Shown here one piece after another: positions 40,906 to 51,195 of a DNA stretch of 57,303 bases. The position numbers and the translations under genes are program-made. Source of the DNA: Candidatus Aminicenantota bacterium. GTDB lineage: Bacteria > Acidobacteriota > Aminicenantia > Aminicenantales > Aminicenantaceae. Positions within the stretch are counted from its first letter, which is position 1. The number at the start of each line of letters is the position of its first letter. The stretch is from contig DQWD01000337.1 in NCBI GenBank assembly GCA_011042725.1, forward strand, positions 1 through 57,303, read 5' to 3'. Under the pieces are notes generated by a model. The model did not search any database, had not been told where the DNA came from, and was given only the letters and a program-made list of their open reading frames with translations.

Positions 40906-42258
40906 TTGCTCAGAATGTATATTTTATATACTTGGCTACTAGCTTTCGCTCTTTTGATTTTCTATATTCCCTATTATTTTTTTCATTATCGAGTGCGACG
41001 GCGGCAAAAACTTTACCTTAAAGACAGGCTTGGTCTAAATTTGAAAAGCCTTTCTCCCCCTGATTCTCAACGACCTGTTTTGTGGTTTCACGCTGTTTCT
41101 GTTGGAGAAAGCCTATCTCTTCAGGGATTGATAAGGGCTCTTCGAAAAAAACACCCCGAATATGAGCTTAACCTCTCGTGTTTAACAAGTTCAGGAATGG
41201 AAGTAGCCAGCTCCAAGCTCAAGCAGGTTGACCGTCTCTTTTTTATTCCCTTTGATTTTGGTTTTATCCATAAGAAATACTTTGACTATCTCCACCCGGA
41301 TTTGTTAGTACTGGTGGAATCAGAGTATTGGCCCAATTTATTGAGGGCGGCTCGACGAAGAGGATGTCCGATCTTGGTGATTAATGCCCGAATGACAGAA
41401 AAAGTCTTTCGGCGTTACCGGCGCCTTAAGTTTTTGACTTCCCGATTGTTGAATCAAGTCGATAAGTTCTTAGTTCCTTCGGAAAAAGAGAAGCAAAGAC
41501 TTAGGCTTTTGGGGGTGGGAGAGGATAAAATAATGATCTCTGGTAATATGAAATGTGATCTTGAGCTTCCTTCCGTCACCGAAGAAGAGCGCCAACAACT
41601 GAGACGGAAATTTGGGTTTGAACGGCTGATTTTTTCCCGCCCGGTCCAAGTTTTTATGGCCGGGAGTATCCACCAAGGTGAGGAGGAAAAAATTCTCCGG
41701 GCCTTTAGCTTGGTTCGGAAAGAAAAAAGGCCGTATCTTCTAGTCATTGCGCCTCGTCATCTTGACTGGGTGGAGGAGATTGTTCGACTTGCTCATCAAT
41801 ACGGTTTTAAATGCCAAAGGCGGACTAAGCTTGTTGAAAATGATCTGGATGAAAGAACAAAAGCCCAGAAAGTAGCTTCTCCGCCTGACTGGGATGTCTT
41901 GGTTTTGGACACAATTGGCGAGTTGGCTACCTGGTATGCTCTGGCCGATGTGGTTTTAATTGGCGGTAGCTTGATTCCTTGGGGTGGCCATAATCTTTTG
42001 GAACCTGCTTTTTACGGCCGGCCAATTTATTTCGGGCCTTATATGCATAATTTTCAGGAGTTGAGCGATAAATTCAGGCACTCAGGCGGGGCTCAAATGG
42101 TTCAAGATGAAAAAGAACTAGCACGAATTCTCGTCCAAACCACGGAAGAGGAATTTCGCCAAAAAGGGAAAAAGGCTCAATTAACCCTTCGGGAACTCCA
42201 AGGGGCTACCGCGATAATTATCAGTGAAATTGAAAAACTTATTGACAAAAATGGTTAA
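40906..42258 (+). CDS. waaA: 3-deoxy-D-manno-octulosonic acid transferase
   Basis: LWFHAVSVGESLSLQGLIRALRKKHPEYELNLSCLTSSGMEVA; LVLVESEYWPNLLRAARRRGCPILVINARMTEK; IGGSLIPWGGHNLLEPAFYGRPIYFGPYMHNF. Confidence 0.95.
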   Translation: MLRMYILYTWLLAFALLIFYIPYYFFHYRVRRRQKLYLKDRLGLNLKSLSPPDSQRPVLWFHAVSVGESLSLQGLIRALRKKHPEYELNLSCLTSSGMEVASSKLKQVDRLFFIPFDFGFIHKKYFDYLHPDLLVLVESEYWPNLLRAARRRGCPILVINARMTEKVFRRYRRLKFLTSRLLNQVDKFLVPSEKEKQRLRLLGVGEDKIMISGNMKCDLELPSVTEEERQQLRRKFGFERLIFSRPVQVFMAGSIHQGEEEKILRAFSLVRKEKRPYLLVIAPRHLDWVEEIVRLAHQYGFKCQRRTKLVENDLDERTKAQKVASPPDWDVLVLDTIGELATWYALADVVLIGGSLIPWGGHNLLEPAFYGRPIYFGPYMHNFQELSDKFRHSGGAQMVQDEKELARILVQTTEEEFRQKGKKAQLTLRELQGATAIIISEIEKLIDKNG

Positions 42259-43078
42259 AAAATTAAGTTTAGGGTGGGGATTAGTATTCTGTTTGCTAAT
42301 GAATTATAGCCTTGCGCAAGAAAATAATCCTAATAACAGGGAAAGTTACCGCTTAAATAAAGATTTTTTAACCCGGACCGCTAAAGATTTGGGAGCGATT
42401 AGTTCAGCCCCATTTTCATGGGAAAAATCAGATTGGTTGAAATTTGCTTTTATTACCAGCGCGGGGGTAATTGTTTATTTTGTGGATAAACCTCTTCATG
42501 ATTGGGTTGAGGAGAATAAAACCGAAAGTTCTACCGATATTTCTAACTTTGTTTCCTATTTTGGGCACGGAGGAGTAATTGTTGCCGGGGCAGGAACTGG
42601 CTATTTGGTCGGGGAGTTAACCCACAGCGCCGAATGGAGAAAAACAGCGCTGCTGTCGCTGGAAAGTTGGGGCGCCTCGGGACTTTTGGTAACTTTGATG
42701 AAATTTCTTATTGGCCGGGAACGACCTTATGTCGAACATAAGGCCAATAGTTTCCATCCCTTCGCCTTCAAATCGGCTTACCGTTCTTTTCCTTCCGGCC
42801 ACGCCACTTCCGCCTTCGCCGTAGCAGCGGTTGTTGCCGAGCAAGTGGAAAGTAAAGTTGTGGATGGGATGGTTTACACCTTGGCCTCGTTGGTGTCCCT
42901 TTCGCGGGTTCATGACGGCGAACATTGGATGTCTGATGTTCTAATTGGCAGTGCTTTAGGTTACCTTGTAGGAAAGAAAATTTGCCGGTTACATTCTAAA
43001 ACTTCCCCTTCGCCTCTTGCTTTTAAAGTGAAATTTACTTGCCAGGGGGCGTCTTTCACCTGTCAATACTTTTTCTAG
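42251..43078 (+). CDS. PAP2 family phosphatase
   Basis: KFLIGRERPY; SFPSGHATSAFAVAAV; SRVHDGEHWMSDVLIGSALG. ATG at 42251 overlaps the waaA stop; the track start at 42224 is an alternative. Confidence 0.9.
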   Translation: MVKKLSLGWGLVFCLLMNYSLAQENNPNNRESYRLNKDFLTRTAKDLGAISSAPFSWEKSDWLKFAFITSAGVIVYFVDKPLHDWVEENKTESSTDISNFVSYFGHGGVIVAGAGTGYLVGELTHSAEWRKTALLSLESWGASGLLVTLMKFLIGRERPYVEHKANSFHPFAFKSAYRSFPSGHATSAFAVAAVVAEQVESKVVDGMVYTLASLVSLSRVHDGEHWMSDVLIGSALGYLVGKKICRLHSKTSPSPLAFKVKFTCQGASFTCQYFF

Positions 43079-43153
43079 GGTCAGGAGAAGGCTAACAGAG
43101 GAAAAGTGAAATTAAAAATAGAGAAAAATAACAGACTTAAAAAGGAGAAAAAA

Positions 43154-44839
43154 ATGAGTCAAATAACCAGGCGGGAATTTTTGAAGAAAACTTCGGTATT
43201 GGCTCTGGCTTCGGGGAGTGGCTTTTTATTGAAAGGATGCACGAAGGGTAAGGATTTTGACTGGGTGATAAAAGGGGGCCGGGTAATTGATGGTTCAGGT
43301 TCGCCTCCCCGGGAAACTGATGTGGGGATCAAAGATGGTCTAATTGTGGAAATAGGGCCAATTTCTGCACGTCGGGCGAGGATGGTTTGTGAAGCCCGGG
43401 AAATGTTCGTCTGCCCAGGTTTTATTGACGTCCACGATCATACCGATGTTCAACTTTTAGTTGATCCTAAAGGAGAAAGTGCCGTTCACCAGGGGATAAC
43501 TACGCTGATGAGTGGTAATTGTGGTTACTCACCCTTTCCCATTGCCGATGAAATTTATGAGGAATTTAAATTAGATCTTAAGGAGCAGTACGGCTTGGAT
43601 CTTGATTGGCGAGATATCAGCGGCTTTTTGCAATGCTTGGAGAAGCAAGGTTTGGCTTTAAATTATGCCACCCTTGTTGGTCATGGCTCTATCAGGGGAG
43701 CAGCCATGGGTTTTGATGATCGAGAACCAACTGCTGAAGAATTAGCGAGGATGAAAGTAATGGTGGAAGAGGCGATGAAAAACGGAGCTTTTGGTCTTTC
43801 TAGTGGCTTAGAATATACCCCTGGGAGTTATGCGAAAACCGGCGAATTGATCGAATTATGTCGAGTGGTGACCCAACTAAGTGGAGTTTATGCCACCCAT
43901 ATGCGCGATGAAAGTGATTACCTTCTTGAAGCCCTCGATGAAAGTTTTCAAATAGCTCGTGTCAGTGGCGTTAGTATTCAAATATCTCATTTAAAGGTTG
44001 CCTATCCTAGTAATTGGTCTAAAATAGATGAAGCCTTGGCTCGTCTTGATCAAGCTGCAGAAGAAGGGATTAATGTTTTTGCCGATCGGTATCCTTATTT
44101 GGCGGCATCAACTGGACTAGGTAGTATTTTTCCTATTTGGGCGATGGAAGGCACAACCAAAGATTTCCTCCGTCGTCTCCAGGATAAGAGCCTAGAACAG
44201 AAATTTCGGGATTATCTGGCCAATGAAGAGAAAAGTCTTGGCTCTTGGGATAAAGTGCTTGTTGCCTCGGTGGTTAGCGAGAAGAATAGAAATTTTGAAG
44301 GGATGAGCATTCTTGAGTGTTGCCGACGAACTGGGAAAGACGCCTTTGAGTTCATCCGGGATTTGTTAGTTGAAGAGAGGAATCGCGTGGGCATGATCAT
44401 CTTCATGATGAAAGAGGAGAATTTAAAGAAAATCTTGGCTCATCCTTTGGTTGGAGTAGGTTGTGATGGAGGAGCTATTTCTCCCGAGGGTGTTCTTGGC
44501 AAGGGAAAACCTCATCCCCGCCACTATGGAACTTTTCCTCGGGTCCTAGGAAAATATATTCGCGAAGAAAAAATTCTTCCCTGGGAAGAAATGATCTCCA
44601 AGATGACCTATCGAGCCGCGGTAAAGTTCGGATTATCAAAGAGAGGGCTTTTAAAACCAGGATACCAGGCTGATGTTGTGGTTTTCAATCCGGAAACAGT
44701 CATTGATCGGGCGACTTGGACCAATCCTCATCAATTTCCCCAAGGAATCATCCATGTATTTGTCAATGGTATGAAGGTCATCGAGGAGGAGAAGCATACA
44801 GGACGCCTGCCTGGGTATGTGCTTCGAAAAAGAGTCTGA
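43154..44839 (+). CDS. N-acyl-D-amino-acid deacylase/amidohydrolase family lipoprotein with Tat-like signal
   Basis: MSQITRREFLKKTSVLALASGSGFLLKGCTKG (Tat + lipobox); VIDGSGSPPRETDVGIKDGLIVEIG; FIDVHDHTDVQLLVDP; GNCGYSPFPI; RDESDYLLEALDE. Confidence 0.9.
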   Translation: MSQITRREFLKKTSVLALASGSGFLLKGCTKGKDFDWVIKGGRVIDGSGSPPRETDVGIKDGLIVEIGPISARRARMVCEAREMFVCPGFIDVHDHTDVQLLVDPKGESAVHQGITTLMSGNCGYSPFPIADEIYEEFKLDLKEQYGLDLDWRDISGFLQCLEKQGLALNYATLVGHGSIRGAAMGFDDREPTAEELARMKVMVEEAMKNGAFGLSSGLEYTPGSYAKTGELIELCRVVTQLSGVYATHMRDESDYLLEALDESFQIARVSGVSIQISHLKVAYPSNWSKIDEALARLDQAAEEGINVFADRYPYLAASTGLGSIFPIWAMEGTTKDFLRRLQDKSLEQKFRDYLANEEKSLGSWDKVLVASVVSEKNRNFEGMSILECCRRTGKDAFEFIRDLLVEERNRVGMIIFMMKEENLKKILAHPLVGVGCDGGAISPEGVLGKGKPHPRHYGTFPRVLGKYIREEKILPWEEMISKMTYRAAVKFGLSKRGLLKPGYQADVVVFNPETVIDRATWTNPHQFPQGIIHVFVNGMKVIEEEKHTGRLPGYVLRKRV

Positions 44840-44861
44840 AAAAATTTGAAGTATAGAGACC

Positions 44862-45791
44862 ATGAGATTTAAGTTCTATTGGTTGTTGAAAACCCTAGTT
44901 TTTGTCTCCTGGATTTGCTTATTTAACATTGCCTCCTCTGGCCTTAATTTAATTTGGTCAATTCCCGAACCGCGGCCGCAAACTTCGACTGAGAAACCTG
45001 CAATTGAACTCGATTATCGTTCCCTAAAGCCCGGGGAAGTAATCAAGGTCAGTGTTCCTCAAGGCGAGCATCTTCGCCAAGTCGAGTTGAGGTTCGAGAA
45101 GCAAAAGTACAGACTTTATTTCGACCAAACCACCCAAACTTGGTTGGGATTCGTTGGCCTTGATTTTCAATTACCGCCAGGCCAATACTCTTTGGAAGCC
45201 ATCATGGTGGACATTCAAGGGAATGTGAGTAAGGTGCAGATTCCCCTGCTCGTTCAAATCAAAAAATTCCCTACTAAGAAACTTTGGGTGGAGCCTCGTT
45301 ATGTTACTCCTCCCCCTGAGGTAACCGAGAGAATAAGAAGAGAGTCAGCTCTTTTACGCAGTATTTTTTCTCTAGAAACTCCCTCCTGGTTCGGCGAAGG
45401 AAAGTTTATCCTTCCTACCCAAGGCAAGATCAATTTTAATTTTGGAGAAAGAAGAATTTATAACAACCAGCCTCGTTCATCTCATTCCGGAATAGATATT
45501 GCTGCGGTTACTGGTACTCCCGTCCTGGCCAGCAATTCGGGCCGGATAGTGCTGGCTTCAGAGCTATATTTTGCCGGAAAAACCGTCATCATTGATCATG
45601 GCCTGGGGCTTTACACTTTTTATGCTCATCTCTCCCAAATCAAAGTAAAACGAGATGACAAGGTGGTAAAGGGAGAGGTTATTGGCTTGGTGGGAGCTAC
45701 TGGTCGAGTAACAGGACCTCATCTTCATTGGAGTGTGCGTCTAAAGGGAAGCCGGGTTGATCCTCTCTCGCTGTTGGCTTTATCGGACTAA
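44862..45791 (+). CDS. M23 family metallopeptidase (LytM-like)
   Basis: SSHSGIDIAAVTGTPVLASNSGRIVLASELYFAGKTVIIDHGLGLYTFYAHLSQIKVKRDDKVVKGEVIGLVGATGRVTGPHLHWSVRLKG. Confidence 0.94.
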   Translation: MRFKFYWLLKTLVFVSWICLFNIASSGLNLIWSIPEPRPQTSTEKPAIELDYRSLKPGEVIKVSVPQGEHLRQVELRFEKQKYRLYFDQTTQTWLGFVGLDFQLPPGQYSLEAIMVDIQGNVSKVQIPLLVQIKKFPTKKLWVEPRYVTPPPEVTERIRRESALLRSIFSLETPSWFGEGKFILPTQGKINFNFGERRIYNNQPRSSHSGIDIAAVTGTPVLASNSGRIVLASELYFAGKTVIIDHGLGLYTFYAHLSQIKVKRDDKVVKGEVIGLVGATGRVTGPHLHWSVRLKGSRVDPLSLLALSD

Positions 45792-45856
45792 AAAGATAGA
45801 TAAAAAAAATTTTAACTAAACGTCTAGGGAATAGGGGCCAACTTCGGTTCGCGGAG

Positions 45857-45886
45857 TTGACAGTTTTCGTTCTTTTCCGGTAGGAT
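45857..45886 (+). promoter_or_regulatory. Candidate promoter upstream of permuted iPGM gene
   Basis: TTGACA (45857-45862), 18-nt spacer, TAGGAT (45881-45886); weak -10. Confidence 0.25.
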
Positions 45887-45968
45887 GGCATCCTTAACAA
45901 AAAAATAATTATAGTTGGGGAATAATAATTTAGTTAAAAAGAAACTTCCCCGCTCTTTGAGGTAGGAG

Positions 45969-47597
45969 ATGGTCAAAAATTCAATGAGTAAAAAAAGCCA
46001 AGTTCAAAGCGCCTTTGTTCAGGCAATTAGAGAAGCTTATGGCCAGGGTCAAGAGGATGAAGCCTTGGAACCATTGGTGGCGGTCGATGAGCAAGGTCGT
46101 CCCTTGGGCCGCGTGCAGAAGGGAGATGTGGTGATTTTCTATGATTTAAGAGGCGAAAGAGAGATTGAATTGACCCAAGCCTTGACTGATGAAGAATTCC
46201 ATTATTTCCCTGTCGAGTCATTGGATCTAAGCATGGTCACTATGATTGAATATGCTTCCCGGTTAAAAGTTAAAGTGGCGTTTCCTCCCGAAGGTCCTGT
46301 CAACAATACTCTTACTGAGGTTTTATCTCGGGCCGGGAAGAGAGTTCTCAAAATCTCCGAGTCCGAGAAAGCTATTCATCTTGGTTATTTTATGAATGGG
46401 AAACAAGAGGTAATCTTTCCGGGAGAAAAAAGAAAAATTATTCCCTCACCTCAGGGTATCGCCAATTATGCGAAAGTTCCGCAAATGAGTGCTGCTCAGG
46501 TCACCGAAGCCATCATCGAGTCACTAGAAGAAGACCATGACTTAGTCATTGCTAATTATGCCAATGTGGATGTTGTCGGCCATATCGAGGATGAGCAAGC
46601 GGTGCTGGAGGCAGTGGAGGTTGTCGATAAAGAATTGGGGCGAGTGGTCAAAGCTTGCCAGGATAAGCACATCACGTTGGTGGTCACTGCCGACCACGGT
46701 ACTGTTGAAGAATGGTATTATCCCGATGGAACCATCGATACTGGACACACCCGCAATCCTGTTCCGTTTGTTTTGGCTGATTTTTCTCTTTCTTCTGGTT
46801 CGGAAAATGAGTTGAAACTTCGGTCCCAAGGAGAGTTGATCGATGTCGCCCCGACTATTTTAAACCTCCTGGGAGTAGACACCCCCCAGGAAATGACAGG
46901 TCAAGATTTGCTCGAGATTGGCGAACTAATTTCCTCATCTCGGTCAAAAATTCTCCTTCTTATCTTGGATGGTTGGGGCTTGAGAAAGGAAAAATGGGGC
47001 AATATGATTGCTCGAGCTAGGACTCCTAATTTTGAGAGTCTATGGGCTAATTATCCTCATTCTTTACTTGCAGCTTCGGGAGAAGCAGTGGGCATGCCGC
47101 CCGGAACAGTAGGTAATTCTGAGTCAGGTCATCTTCATTTAGGGGCGGGCCGCCGGATACTTCTTGACCGGGTGCGGATTGATAAGGCTATTCAGCAGGG
47201 AACCTTTTTCCAGAACGAAGCTTTTCTTTGGGCTCTAGACAAAGCCCAGAAGAGGGGAAGGGCCCTTCATCTTTTAGGCATTGTCTCTCATTATAGTTCT
47301 CATGGAACGATTGACCATCTTTTCGCTCTTCTCCGCCTGGCTCGCCAGCATAATGTTTCTCAAGTTTATATTCATTGTTTGATCGGACGCCGGGGAGAAA
47401 AACCCGAAAGTGGGGCCATCTACGTGCATAAAGTTGAGGAGATGGCTCGCTCTTTAGGGATTGGACAAGTAGTGACGGTCATCGGTCGTTTCTGGGCTCT
47501 GGACCGGGAGGAAAACTGGGATCGAGTGGAAAAAACCTATCGAGCTTTAGTTTACGGAGAAGGAACTCCAGTTAAGCAAGATAACCGGCGGCAATAA
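45969..47597 (+). CDS. gpmI: Circularly permuted 2,3-bisphosphoglycerate-independent phosphoglycerate mutase
   Basis: N-terminal part AIREAYGQGQEDEALEPLV..GDVVIFYDLRGERE..AFPPEGPVNNTLTEVLS..SESEKAIHLGYFMNG..PSPQGIANY..NYANVDVVGH..TADHGTVEE..HTRNPVPF..PTILNLLGVDTPQEMTG, followed in the same ORF by ILLLILDGWGL..GMPPGTVGNSESGHLHLGAGR..IDHLFALLRLA..GRFWALDREENWDRVEKTYRALVYGEG. Order is C-terminal block then N-terminal block of canonical GpmI. Confidence 0.92.
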   Translation: MVKNSMSKKSQVQSAFVQAIREAYGQGQEDEALEPLVAVDEQGRPLGRVQKGDVVIFYDLRGEREIELTQALTDEEFHYFPVESLDLSMVTMIEYASRLKVKVAFPPEGPVNNTLTEVLSRAGKRVLKISESEKAIHLGYFMNGKQEVIFPGEKRKIIPSPQGIANYAKVPQMSAAQVTEAIIESLEEDHDLVIANYANVDVVGHIEDEQAVLEAVEVVDKELGRVVKACQDKHITLVVTADHGTVEEWYYPDGTIDTGHTRNPVPFVLADFSLSSGSENELKLRSQGELIDVAPTILNLLGVDTPQEMTGQDLLEIGELISSSRSKILLLILDGWGLRKEKWGNMIARARTPNFESLWANYPHSLLAASGEAVGMPPGTVGNSESGHLHLGAGRRILLDRVRIDKAIQQGTFFQNEAFLWALDKAQKRGRALHLLGIVSHYSSHGTIDHLFALLRLARQHNVSQVYIHCLIGRRGEKPESGAIYVHKVEEMARSLGIGQVVTVIGRFWALDREENWDRVEKTYRALVYGEGTPVKQDNRRQ

Positions 47598-47655
47598 GTC
47601 CTTTTGAAAATGAACATTTTGGGAGAATTAATCGTATTTAAAACAAGGGATAACA

Positions 47656-48579
47656 GTGACTCCAGCCGCTAAGATCTTAGACCTCCAAAGAATTGGTTAT
47701 AATTATGGGCAGATTAAAGCTCTTTCCGGAGTAAGTATCACAGTGGAGAAGGGCCCGGTCGGGCTTCTCGGGCCTAACGGAGCCGGCAAAAGTACCCTTT
47801 TGCGCTTACTGTTGGGTTTTTTAACTATCCAAGAAGGACAAGGAAAAGTTATGGGCTATGATGTCGCTCGAGAGAAGACTCGAGTGCGGCAAATTGTTGG
47901 TTATATGCCGGAAGATGAAAGCTATGTTCCCGGTATTGATGGAGTCACCTTGACAGCTTTGTTAGGTGAGCTATCGGGAATGCCTCGTCAAGAAGCGATG
48001 AAAAGGGCTCATGATGTGCTCTTTTATGTCGGCTTGGAGGAGAGTCGTTATCGTCGGGTGGAAAGTTATTCTAAAGGTATGCGCCAGAGATTGAAGTTAG
48101 CCCAGGCTTTGGTTCATGATCCCCAATTAATCCTCTTAGATGAACCAACTTCTGGTCTTGACCCTCAGGGAAGGGAAGAGATACTGGAGTTGATCACAGA
48201 TATTTCTAACCATGGCGTTCAGGTTTTAGTTTCTTCCCATATTCTTCCTGATATTGAAGAAACGTGCCAAGAGGTAATTATTCTCAATCAAGGTCAAGTG
48301 GCGGCCCAAGGAAATCTTCAAGAATTAAAAAAGCTAAATTATAACCTTTACGAGCTGAAGGTGGCGGGAGAAGCGGCTCCATTTTTGGCAAAGTTGCAAG
48401 AGCGGGGCTGTCGTTGGGAACAAGAAGAGGATTTGTGGAAGTTGTATCTTCCCCGGGAATTGTCGCCGCGAGTAATTTTTGAGTTGGCCGTGGAAGAGAA
48501 AGTTCAAGTTCGTCATCTAGTCAAAAGTCAATCCCGGCTGGAAGATTTATTTGCTCAAGTAGTCGGGGAGGAAGAATGA
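47656..48579 (+). CDS. ABC transporter ATP-binding protein
   Basis: LLGPNGAGKSTLLRLLLG; YSKGMRQRLKLAQALVHDPQLILLDEPTSGLDP; GTG start. Confidence 0.95.
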   Translation: MTPAAKILDLQRIGYNYGQIKALSGVSITVEKGPVGLLGPNGAGKSTLLRLLLGFLTIQEGQGKVMGYDVAREKTRVRQIVGYMPEDESYVPGIDGVTLTALLGELSGMPRQEAMKRAHDVLFYVGLEESRYRRVESYSKGMRQRLKLAQALVHDPQLILLDEPTSGLDPQGREEILELITDISNHGVQVLVSSHILPDIEETCQEVIILNQGQVAAQGNLQELKKLNYNLYELKVAGEAAPFLAKLQERGCRWEQEEDLWKLYLPRELSPRVIFELAVEEKVQVRHLVKSQSRLEDLFAQVVGEEE

Positions 48580-49448
48580 GTATCAGAAAAAAGGGTTATA
48601 GCCACTGGGAAGGGCAACTCAAAGAGTCAGCTTTTGTTGCCTGGTTTCCTCTTACTCGATTAGGAATAAAACTAGCTTTCCAAAAGAGGTTTTTTAAACT
48701 TTTCTTTTTCTCGGCCTTTCTTCCCGCCTTAATTTTTCTAGCGGGAATCTATGTTTCGGAGCGGATGGAGGATTTTCGGTTTATGATTCAAGGCCAACCT
48801 TCCTTCCTCCAGATAACTCCTAATTATTTTAAAGCCTATTTTACTAACTCCTTTTTTCTTTTTTTACTAGTGTTGATGATGATTTTTGTGGGTTCGGGAT
48901 TAATTGCCGACGATTTAAAATTTAAAGCTTTACAACTTTATTTTGCTCGTCCCTTGCGCAAGGTCGATTATTTGCTGGGGAAGATGGCCACCTTAGGTTT
49001 TTTTCTCCTTCTTCTCAGTCTAATTCCGGGCTGGATTTTTGTGTTATTTAAACTCGTCTTTGCCGGCAACTTTGCCTTCCTGCGTTCTTATCCCTGGCTA
49101 CCGTTAGCGGTAGTTGCTTATTCCTTAATTTTAACTTTATTTTTTGCTATTTATACTTTGACTCTTTCGGCTCTCAGTAGCAATAGTCGACATGTGGCCT
49201 TGATGATCTTCGGGATTTATTTGGCTTCGGATATCATTTTCGGTATTTTTTATCAAAACTTTCATCATCCCTACCTGGCTCTTCTTTCGCTGAAATTGAA
49301 TCTTCAGCAAGTGGGAGCAGCGCTTTTTGGAGAGAAACTCTTTTATCCTGTTCCTTGGGGATGGTCGCTTTTACTTCTTATTATGTTGATGGGGTTGGGC
49401 TTAGCTATTCTTAACCGGCGAATCAGAAGCGTTGAGGTGGTTAAATGA
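48576..49448 (+). CDS. ABC transporter permease (ABC-2 type)
   Basis: Multi-TM; FVGSGLIADDLKFKALQLYFARPLRKVDYLLGKMATLGFFLLLLSLIPGW; overlaps flanking ATPase genes by 4 nt. Confidence 0.9.
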   Translation: MSIRKKGYSHWEGQLKESAFVAWFPLTRLGIKLAFQKRFFKLFFFSAFLPALIFLAGIYVSERMEDFRFMIQGQPSFLQITPNYFKAYFTNSFFLFLLVLMMIFVGSGLIADDLKFKALQLYFARPLRKVDYLLGKMATLGFFLLLLSLIPGWIFVLFKLVFAGNFAFLRSYPWLPLAVVAYSLILTLFFAIYTLTLSALSSNSRHVALMIFGIYLASDIIFGIFYQNFHHPYLALLSLKLNLQQVGAALFGEKLFYPVPWGWSLLLLIMLMGLGLAILNRRIRSVEVVK

Positions 49449-50374
49449 ACCCGGTCGTTGAGACAAAAAATTTATCCAAATATTATGGCAATGTGCTGGG
49501 ATTGAGTGATGTCTCGGTAGAAATTCATCCAGGAGTAGTTGGCCTTCTTGGTCCCAATGGGGCGGGGAAATCAACCTTTTTAAAGTTGATCACCGGGCAA
49601 TTGAAACCTAGCTTGGGACAAGTTTATGTGTTTGGCCAGAAGATTTGGAATAACCCTCAACTCTTTGCTGATATCGGTTATTGCCCAGAGACAGATGCTT
49701 TTTTTGAGGATTTATCGGGTTGGCAATTTCTAACCTGGATGCTCCAACTCCATCACTTTTCGGCTTGCCAGGCCAAAGAGAAGGCAAACGAAATCCTTGG
49801 TTTTCTTCATCTTGCCGAGGACAAAGACCGTCTCATTCGTTCCTACAGCCGGGGAATGAGGCAACGGCTAAAAATAGCCCAAGCCATCGCTCATGACCCC
49901 CAACTAATTATTCTTGATGAGCCTTTGAATGGATTGGATCCTTTGGGAAGAAGGAAGGTGATTAAATATATCCGCAAGATGGGTGAAGAAGGCCGAACGG
50001 TAATTGTCTCTAGCCATGTCCTCCCTGAAATTGAAGCCATGACTAAAAAGATAATCCTCATTCATCAAGGGAAAATATTTGCCTCGGGAAATATTCACTA
50101 TATTCGGGAGTTAATCGATTCCCATCCTCATATCATTTCCATTAAATGCAACCAAGTTCGGGATTTGGCCGCAGCCTTGATCAAAGCCGAAGAAGTAATT
50201 AAGGTCTTTTTTACTCCCGATCCCCAAGAAGTTCAGATTGAGACCCGCCAGCGCGATGTTTTTTTTGATCGTCTGCAGAAGCTTATTCTTGAACTTGATT
50301 TAAATGTGGAGGCCATCACTTCCCCTGATGACAATCTCCAGGCGGTGTTTGACTATTTAATTGGAGAAAAATAA
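49445..50374 (+). CDS. ABC transporter ATP-binding protein
   Basis: LLGPNGAGKSTFLKLITGQ; YSRGMRQRLKIAQAIAHDPQLIILDEPLNGLDP. Confidence 0.95.
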   Translation: MNPVVETKNLSKYYGNVLGLSDVSVEIHPGVVGLLGPNGAGKSTFLKLITGQLKPSLGQVYVFGQKIWNNPQLFADIGYCPETDAFFEDLSGWQFLTWMLQLHHFSACQAKEKANEILGFLHLAEDKDRLIRSYSRGMRQRLKIAQAIAHDPQLIILDEPLNGLDPLGRRKVIKYIRKMGEEGRTVIVSSHVLPEIEAMTKKIILIHQGKIFASGNIHYIRELIDSHPHIISIKCNQVRDLAAALIKAEEVIKVFFTPDPQEVQIETRQRDVFFDRLQKLILELDLNVEAITSPDDNLQAVFDYLIGEK

Positions 50375-51195
50375 TGAGTTCCCTGGCCCATTTGGAAAAG
50401 AAAAAAACCTTATTTTTCCCTAGTGTTCGTGATATTTTTAAATTTTACTTTTTCCTTGGTTTAAATTCTCGCCGCTCGCGATTGTTTTTACTCAGTAGTA
50501 TAGTGCCGATTGTGATTGCGGCTATCTTTAAAGGATCCCAGATTCTTTACGGTCAACCCCGCTTTTCGGGCTTATTTATCTATTCCAACATGATCATGAT
50601 GTTTTTTCTGCACTTTTTAATCCTGATCATGACCCTTTTTTTTGGCAGTTCAGTGTGCCGGGAAGAAGTGGACGGGTCAACTTTACCTTATCTGGTTACG
50701 CGACCTCTGCATAAAATGGCTTTTATTGTCGGAAAATATGCCGCCTCTACTTTGCTTGTCGGCTTGACGGTGATCTTTAGCTTGGCGATTTGTTTTCTTA
50801 TCCTTAATCTTACCCAGCTGGGAGAGGGGGGTATCTATAAAGTCTTAGCCCGGGATGCCGGAGTGCTCTTCTTAGGGGTCATGAGTTATATGGCCCTTTT
50901 TACTTTTTTGGGCATCATCTTGAAAAAAGCCATTTTCTTTGGTTTGCTCTTTAGTTTTGGCTGGGAGAATATCATCCAGTATTTCCCTGGTCAGACCCAG
51001 CGATTTGCTGTTGTTCATTACCTCAAATCTCTTTTGCCCGCCATGACCCAGGAAGGGTTTCCTTTTCTACTGTTTCGTTTGGAGCCAACTCCACTGGCTC
51101 AGTCGATACTTACCTTGCTGGGAATAGTTATATTCTTTTTAGGACTAAGTTGTGCCCTTTATGCTTGGAAAGAGTTTATCATTGATTCAAAATAA
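50374..51195 (+). CDS. ABC transporter permease (ABC-2 type)
   Basis: Multi-TM; FFGSSVCREEVDGSTLPYLVTRPLHKMAFIVGKYAASTLLVG; adjacent to ATPase. Confidence 0.9.
   Translation: MSSLAHLEKKKTLFFPSVRDIFKFYFFLGLNSRRSRLFLLSSIVPIVIAAIFKGSQILYGQPRFSGLFIYSNMIMMFFLHFLILIMTLFFGSSVCREEVDGSTLPYLVTRPLHKMAFIVGKYAASTLLVGLTVIFSLAICFLILNLTQLGEGGIYKVLARDAGVLFLGVMSYMALFTFLGIILKKAIFFGLLFSFGWENIIQYFPGQTQRFAVVHYLKSLLPAMTQEGFPFLLFRLEPTPLAQSILTLLGIVIFFLGLSCALYAWKEFIIDSK

Follow-up and report, generated by a model that had tools for sequence, protein, structure and literature searches.

Among described proteins, the closest relatives of the protein reported here are the cofactor-independent phosphoglycerate mutases of the GpmI type (iPGM; family model TIGR01307), represented by 1EJJ from B. 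stearothermophilus and 4NWX from S. aureus. Their canonical chain runs collinearly from an N-terminal part of the phosphatase domain through the transferase domain to a C-terminal part of the phosphatase domain. Residues 153–154, together with H123, R185, R191 and two further arginines, are named in the legend to Fig. 4 of PMC5382265 among the phosphoglycerate-binding residues for superposing the 2-PG complex 4NWX of the S. aureus enzyme. Other relatives are further removed. The archaeal-type iPGM (apgM, TIGR00306) belongs to the same superfamily and gives a weak core match to our protein (42.5 bits, far under the curated cut-off of 320), but apgM has ~400 residues, is of canonical order and is encoded by a separate gene in most genomes that carry the permuted gene. 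Phosphopentomutase, sulfatases and the phosphonoformyl transferase PhpG, all of the alkaline phosphatase superfamily, match weakly and in the metalloenzyme core only; the protein scores far under these families' cut-offs, and its inserted transferase domain of iPGM type is left unmatched.

In the window, by which we mean the whole 57,303-nucleotide stretch of Candidatus Aminicenantota DNA that was analysed, one gene encodes a protein with ~40% identity to 1EJJ in a structural alignment, which shares with GpmI the catalytic serine, the metal ligands, most phosphoglycerate ligands and the predicted fold. Unlike GpmI, its chain order is reversed and its termini lie inside the transferase domain; furthermore, the permuted protein has replacements for Asp154 and for both the DGRD and the DGGVHSH loop, and it coexists with another phosphoglycerate mutase (PGM). 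Scanning the window for Rfam families and tRNAs gave no hits. The features of the gene are as follows, with residues of the iPGM parts numbered here and below as in 1EJJ:

45969..47597, plus strand: whole ORF, circularly permuted iPGM-like protein of 542 residues in a single frame, with family and structure matches and homologues of the same order
46020..46913, plus strand: canonical C-terminal part (1EJJ 218–509), first in the chain, from the PDB alignment
46914..46937, plus strand: linker that bridges the old termini, canonical C to canonical N, with 8 residues separating the aligned parts
46938..47570, plus strand: canonical N-terminal part (1EJJ 2–212), second in the chain, from the PDB alignment
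47289..47309, plus strand: remodelled loop HYSSHGT, residues 441–447 of the protein (canonical DGGVHSH), with H445 (= H123) retained
47385..47399, plus strand: remodelled substrate loop GRRGE, residues 473–477 of the protein (canonical DGRDT), with G476 in place of Asp154

The ORF starts with ATG and comprises 542 codons with no internal stop. In phmmer searches against the PDB, query residues 18–315 align with 1EJJ residues 218–509 (206 bits) and query residues 324–534 with 1EJJ residues 2–212 (215 bits), so that the two halves appear in reverse. The match to the NCBIfam model TIGR01307 reaches 496.5 bits, against a cut-off of 330.65, and falls into two out-of-order stretches, the best of which pairs query residues 8–315 with model positions 205–504. 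The Pfam model iPGM_N (PF06415) is itself split, with positions 130–216 at 45996–46256 and positions 1–132 downstream at 47178–47576. The halves are thus reversed in all hits and the protein departs from the collinear canonical order; the cut lies at about iPGM residue 212/218, after VYGEG, within the transferase domain. Because of the TIGR01307, PF06415 and phmmer scores, chance can be excluded. There is practically no doubt that this ORF encodes a naturally circularly permuted iPGM-like protein. An earlier sequence-only reading of this DNA had placed the C-terminal half before the N-terminal half in one 542-residue ORF, with the cut after VYGEG inside the transferase domain; both statements are borne out, and the search with family models that it proposed recovered the out-of-order matches to TIGR01307 and PF06415.

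The alignment also places the catalytic residues. In the first part, R61, R64, K134, D201, H205, D242, H243 and H260 of the window protein correspond to R261, R264, K336, D403, H407, D444, H445 and H462 of 1EJJ; in the second part, D334, the nucleophile S384, H445, R475, R507 and R513 correspond to D12, S62, H123, R153, R185 and R191. An AlphaFold model built from the 47-sequence alignment A1 is iPGM-like (mean pLDDT 92.2, pTM 0.87). The joining linker has a pLDDT of ~82 and block 471–480, the substrate loop region, one of 67; the new termini are modelled with low confidence and are probably disordered. Foldseek against the PDB gave 22 matches with E ≤ 0.001, all of them iPGMs, with the best local fit to S. 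aureus iPGM (2.0 Å over 270 columns). These alignments span only ~230–330 columns, about half the chain, as is to be expected when a sequential aligner meets a permuted one. The two-domain fold of iPGM is thus predicted to be kept, as had been supposed from the sequence, and among the solved iPGM sequences found none is permuted relative to the rest.

The same order recurs widely. A protein search returned eight loci, all in this order and with 54–77% identity (five from Aminicenantes, one from Ardenticatenales, two labelled Deltaproteobacteria). Altogether, reversed halves are present in more than 75 genomes from the window's class, another class of the same phylum, the class holding the Ardenticatenales locus L008 (hereafter the Anaerolineae-type class) and a deltaproteobacterial group, so that homologues of the kind the sequence-only reading wished to see are found in many independent genomes. 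In the window's class, both halves lie reversed on one contig in 54 of 143 genomes, five more hold fragments, and canonical iPGM occurs in about ten of the 143. The second class of the phylum has three permuted cases, the Anaerolineae-type class ~17 among 199 genomes (~22 canonical), and the small class of L009 six in eight genomes. Wider phylum samples added G497, G754, G690 and G764, as well as G729, whose copy is split across contigs. One genome, G196, seemingly holds two permuted genes, on contigs C221 (locus L055) and C445. Linker length and sequence vary across the family.

Misassembly, a frameshift or two fused genes could mimic a permuted order, and the window's assembly is indeed fragmented (365 contigs). 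Against this stand the single open frame in the window and the shared order, cut and linker position in dozens of independent assemblies, including the single-contig assemblies G158 and G159. With the same order in many independently assembled genomes, we rejected an assembly artefact or sequencing error, and a false order of any of these kinds is scarcely conceivable.

For phylogenetic analysis, the halves of 34 permuted sequences were restored to canonical order, for alignment only, and combined with 57 canonical sequences; a root was not inferred. A single branch divides the permuted from the canonical sequences (ultrafast bootstrap 100, SH-aLRT 99, 200 of 200 bootstrap trees). The permuted proteins form one clade and a single origin therefore suffices; as far as the data tell, they would share one origin. 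The deepest permuted sequences, L130 (G328) and L131 (G426), have ~42% identity to the window protein. Their motifs are DGRS and DHGN, in place of the GRRG and, in most cases, DHGT of the other permuted sequences. Since these motifs are intermediate, the permutation probably predates some of the loop remodelling. A canonical-order relative with a GRRGE loop, which would help to order the events, was not among 86 canonical sequences. The suggested route of tandem duplication followed by trimming is plausible, but the intermediate was not found.

Conservation within the clade divides the active site into a kept and a rebuilt portion. The metal ligands and the nucleophile (D12, S62, D403, H407, D444, H445, H462) do not vary in any of the 48 distinct permuted sequences, and the substrate residues H123, R153, R185, R191, R261, R264 and K336 are equally constant there. 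From the phosphoglycerate-binding set, which further includes D154, all members but D154 are thus retained. Asp154 is present in all 86 canonical sequences (58 and 28 further) and in none of the 48 permuted ones, which have Gly (46) or Ser (2). Around it, DGRD has become GRRG(E); DGGVHSH has become xxSSHG(T/S), and positions V122, D151, G152, T155 and N447 likewise differ between the two forms. Glu occupies position 155 in 46 of the 48 permuted sequences; in the two basal ones, neither 154 nor 155 is acidic.

Genome content sets the permuted form apart as well. An archaeal-type PGM scores above its cut-off in 53 of 56 distinct permuted-gene genomes searched, the three without a full copy being G343, where the gene is split, a 1.5-Mb assembly and the window's own 89%-complete assembly, in which none was found although two genus mates have one. 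The corresponding counts are 1 of 36 for genomes with canonical iPGM (one more lies just under the cut-off) and 39 of 50 for genomes without any iPGM. Within the Anaerolineae-type class alone, 14 of 15 permuted genomes vs 0 of 16 canonical ones have the archaeal-type PGM (Fisher p = 6e-8). In the window's class, too, it is missing from G129 and G282, which have canonical iPGM. dPGM was above cut-off in none of 80 genomes searched and in 1 of 15 genomes of another set (G154). Both G690 and G764 hold a permuted gene (GRRGE) plus a canonical iPGM gene (DGRD). The permuted protein was rejected as the host's sole PGM for nearly all carriers, as the archaeal-type PGM is present. From these counts, canonical iPGM looks like an alternative to the archaeal-type PGM and the permuted form like an addition, which suggests that the role of the permuted protein differs from that of canonical iPGM. 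Co-occurrence is no proof of a new function, since many bacteria have redundant PGMs (PMC2964296); besides, genomes from the same clade do not count as independent samples.

The gene lies in a block (40906–51195 of the window) that is conserved across Aminicenantales and comprises genes for a Kdo-transferase-like protein, PAP2, an amidohydrolase, an M23 peptidase, the permuted iPGM and two ABC ATPases with permeases (an ABC exporter). This neighbourhood is conserved only within Aminicenantales; the gene contexts hold no partner common to all groups and indicate no substrate. In E. coli, too, gpmM adjoins an M23-family gene, envC; the likeness to the window block may be coincidence. In the Anaerolineae-type loci L132 (G290) and L133 (G361), the permuted gene is flanked immediately upstream by HAD hydrolases and immediately downstream by a second gene for an archaeal-type PGM; in L134 (G294), L135 (G389) and L142 (G461), also Anaerolineae-type, a His_Phos_1 histidine-phosphatase gene follows directly downstream on the same strand.

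The gene product is a naturally permuted protein of the alkaline phosphatase superfamily, within its iPGM branch. The short linker connects the two native termini, which both belong to the phosphatase domain, and the new termini open the transferase domain after VYGEG. The fold is predicted to be kept; judging from conservation, the protein would hold two metal sites, form a phosphoserine intermediate on its serine nucleophile and retain most phosphoglycerate-binding arginines. Part of the substrate pocket is remodelled in the permuted clade, with loss of Asp154, and the hosts own another PGM. The most likely mechanism would be a phosphoserine-mediated phosphoryl transfer of the Mn2+ type on a phosphoglycerate-like small phospho-acid, in an activity that we propose to be specialised rather than housekeeping. 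We are reasonably confident of this explanation as a whole, that is, of a permuted iPGM performing phosphoserine chemistry on a phosphoglycerate-like substrate, outside housekeeping metabolism and beside another PGM. That the protein has become specialised away from glycolytic PGM is, taken by itself, a point we hold with moderate confidence.

The main competing explanation is an ordinary, active glycolytic PGM with a permuted chain, for which the archaeal-type PGM would be redundant and Glu155 or another group would replace Asp154. All metal ligands, the nucleophile and the seven substrate residues from H123 to K336 are invariant, the TIGR01307 score exceeds the curated cut-off, redundancy of PGMs is common in bacteria as noted above, and Glu155 could stand in for Asp154 through a loop shift. 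Yet Asp154 is gone from every permuted sequence with the surrounding loop rebuilt, and the two basal sequences offer no acidic residue at either position. Moreover, canonical iPGM and archaeal-type PGM are nearly mutually exclusive in the same taxa, a rule that the permuted form breaks, and two genomes retain both iPGM forms. We thus consider an ordinary glycolytic enzyme unlikely, though to be taken seriously. Of the initial identification as a phosphoglycerate mutase, the iPGM family and the predicted fold stand, but PGM function is doubtful given the family-wide loss of Asp154 and the other PGM alongside. A protein that is no longer catalytic and has a regulatory or scaffolding role instead would fit the absence of one substrate-binding residue throughout the family; however, such a protein would have no need of a complete nucleophile and metal set that is invariant over several bacterial groups, which makes this very improbable.

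In summary, the data describe a new iPGM subfamily with a circularly permuted chain, which has probably specialised in a task outside housekeeping glycolysis. We found no description of a permuted iPGM in the literature searched, in keeping with the sequence-only reading, which knew of none; as far as that literature shows, the subfamily is previously undescribed. We lean slightly towards a history in which a central glycolytic enzyme was permuted once, long ago, the permuted form became fixed and came to be distributed over several bacterial groups, and it took on a new, non-glycolytic phosphoryl transfer, the family's members still scoring as ordinary PGM under current family models. It is unusual for a natural permutation to open a domain inserted in a core metabolic enzyme; this one is of old date, occurs widely and had escaped notice in the searched literature. 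Since the permuted protein scores above the curated cut-off for glycolytic iPGM, these genes may be assigned, in metabolic reconstructions of Aminicenantes and Anaerolineae, an activity that they may lack. With this family one can ask directly whether permutation and a shift in substrate went together within the alkaline phosphatase superfamily.
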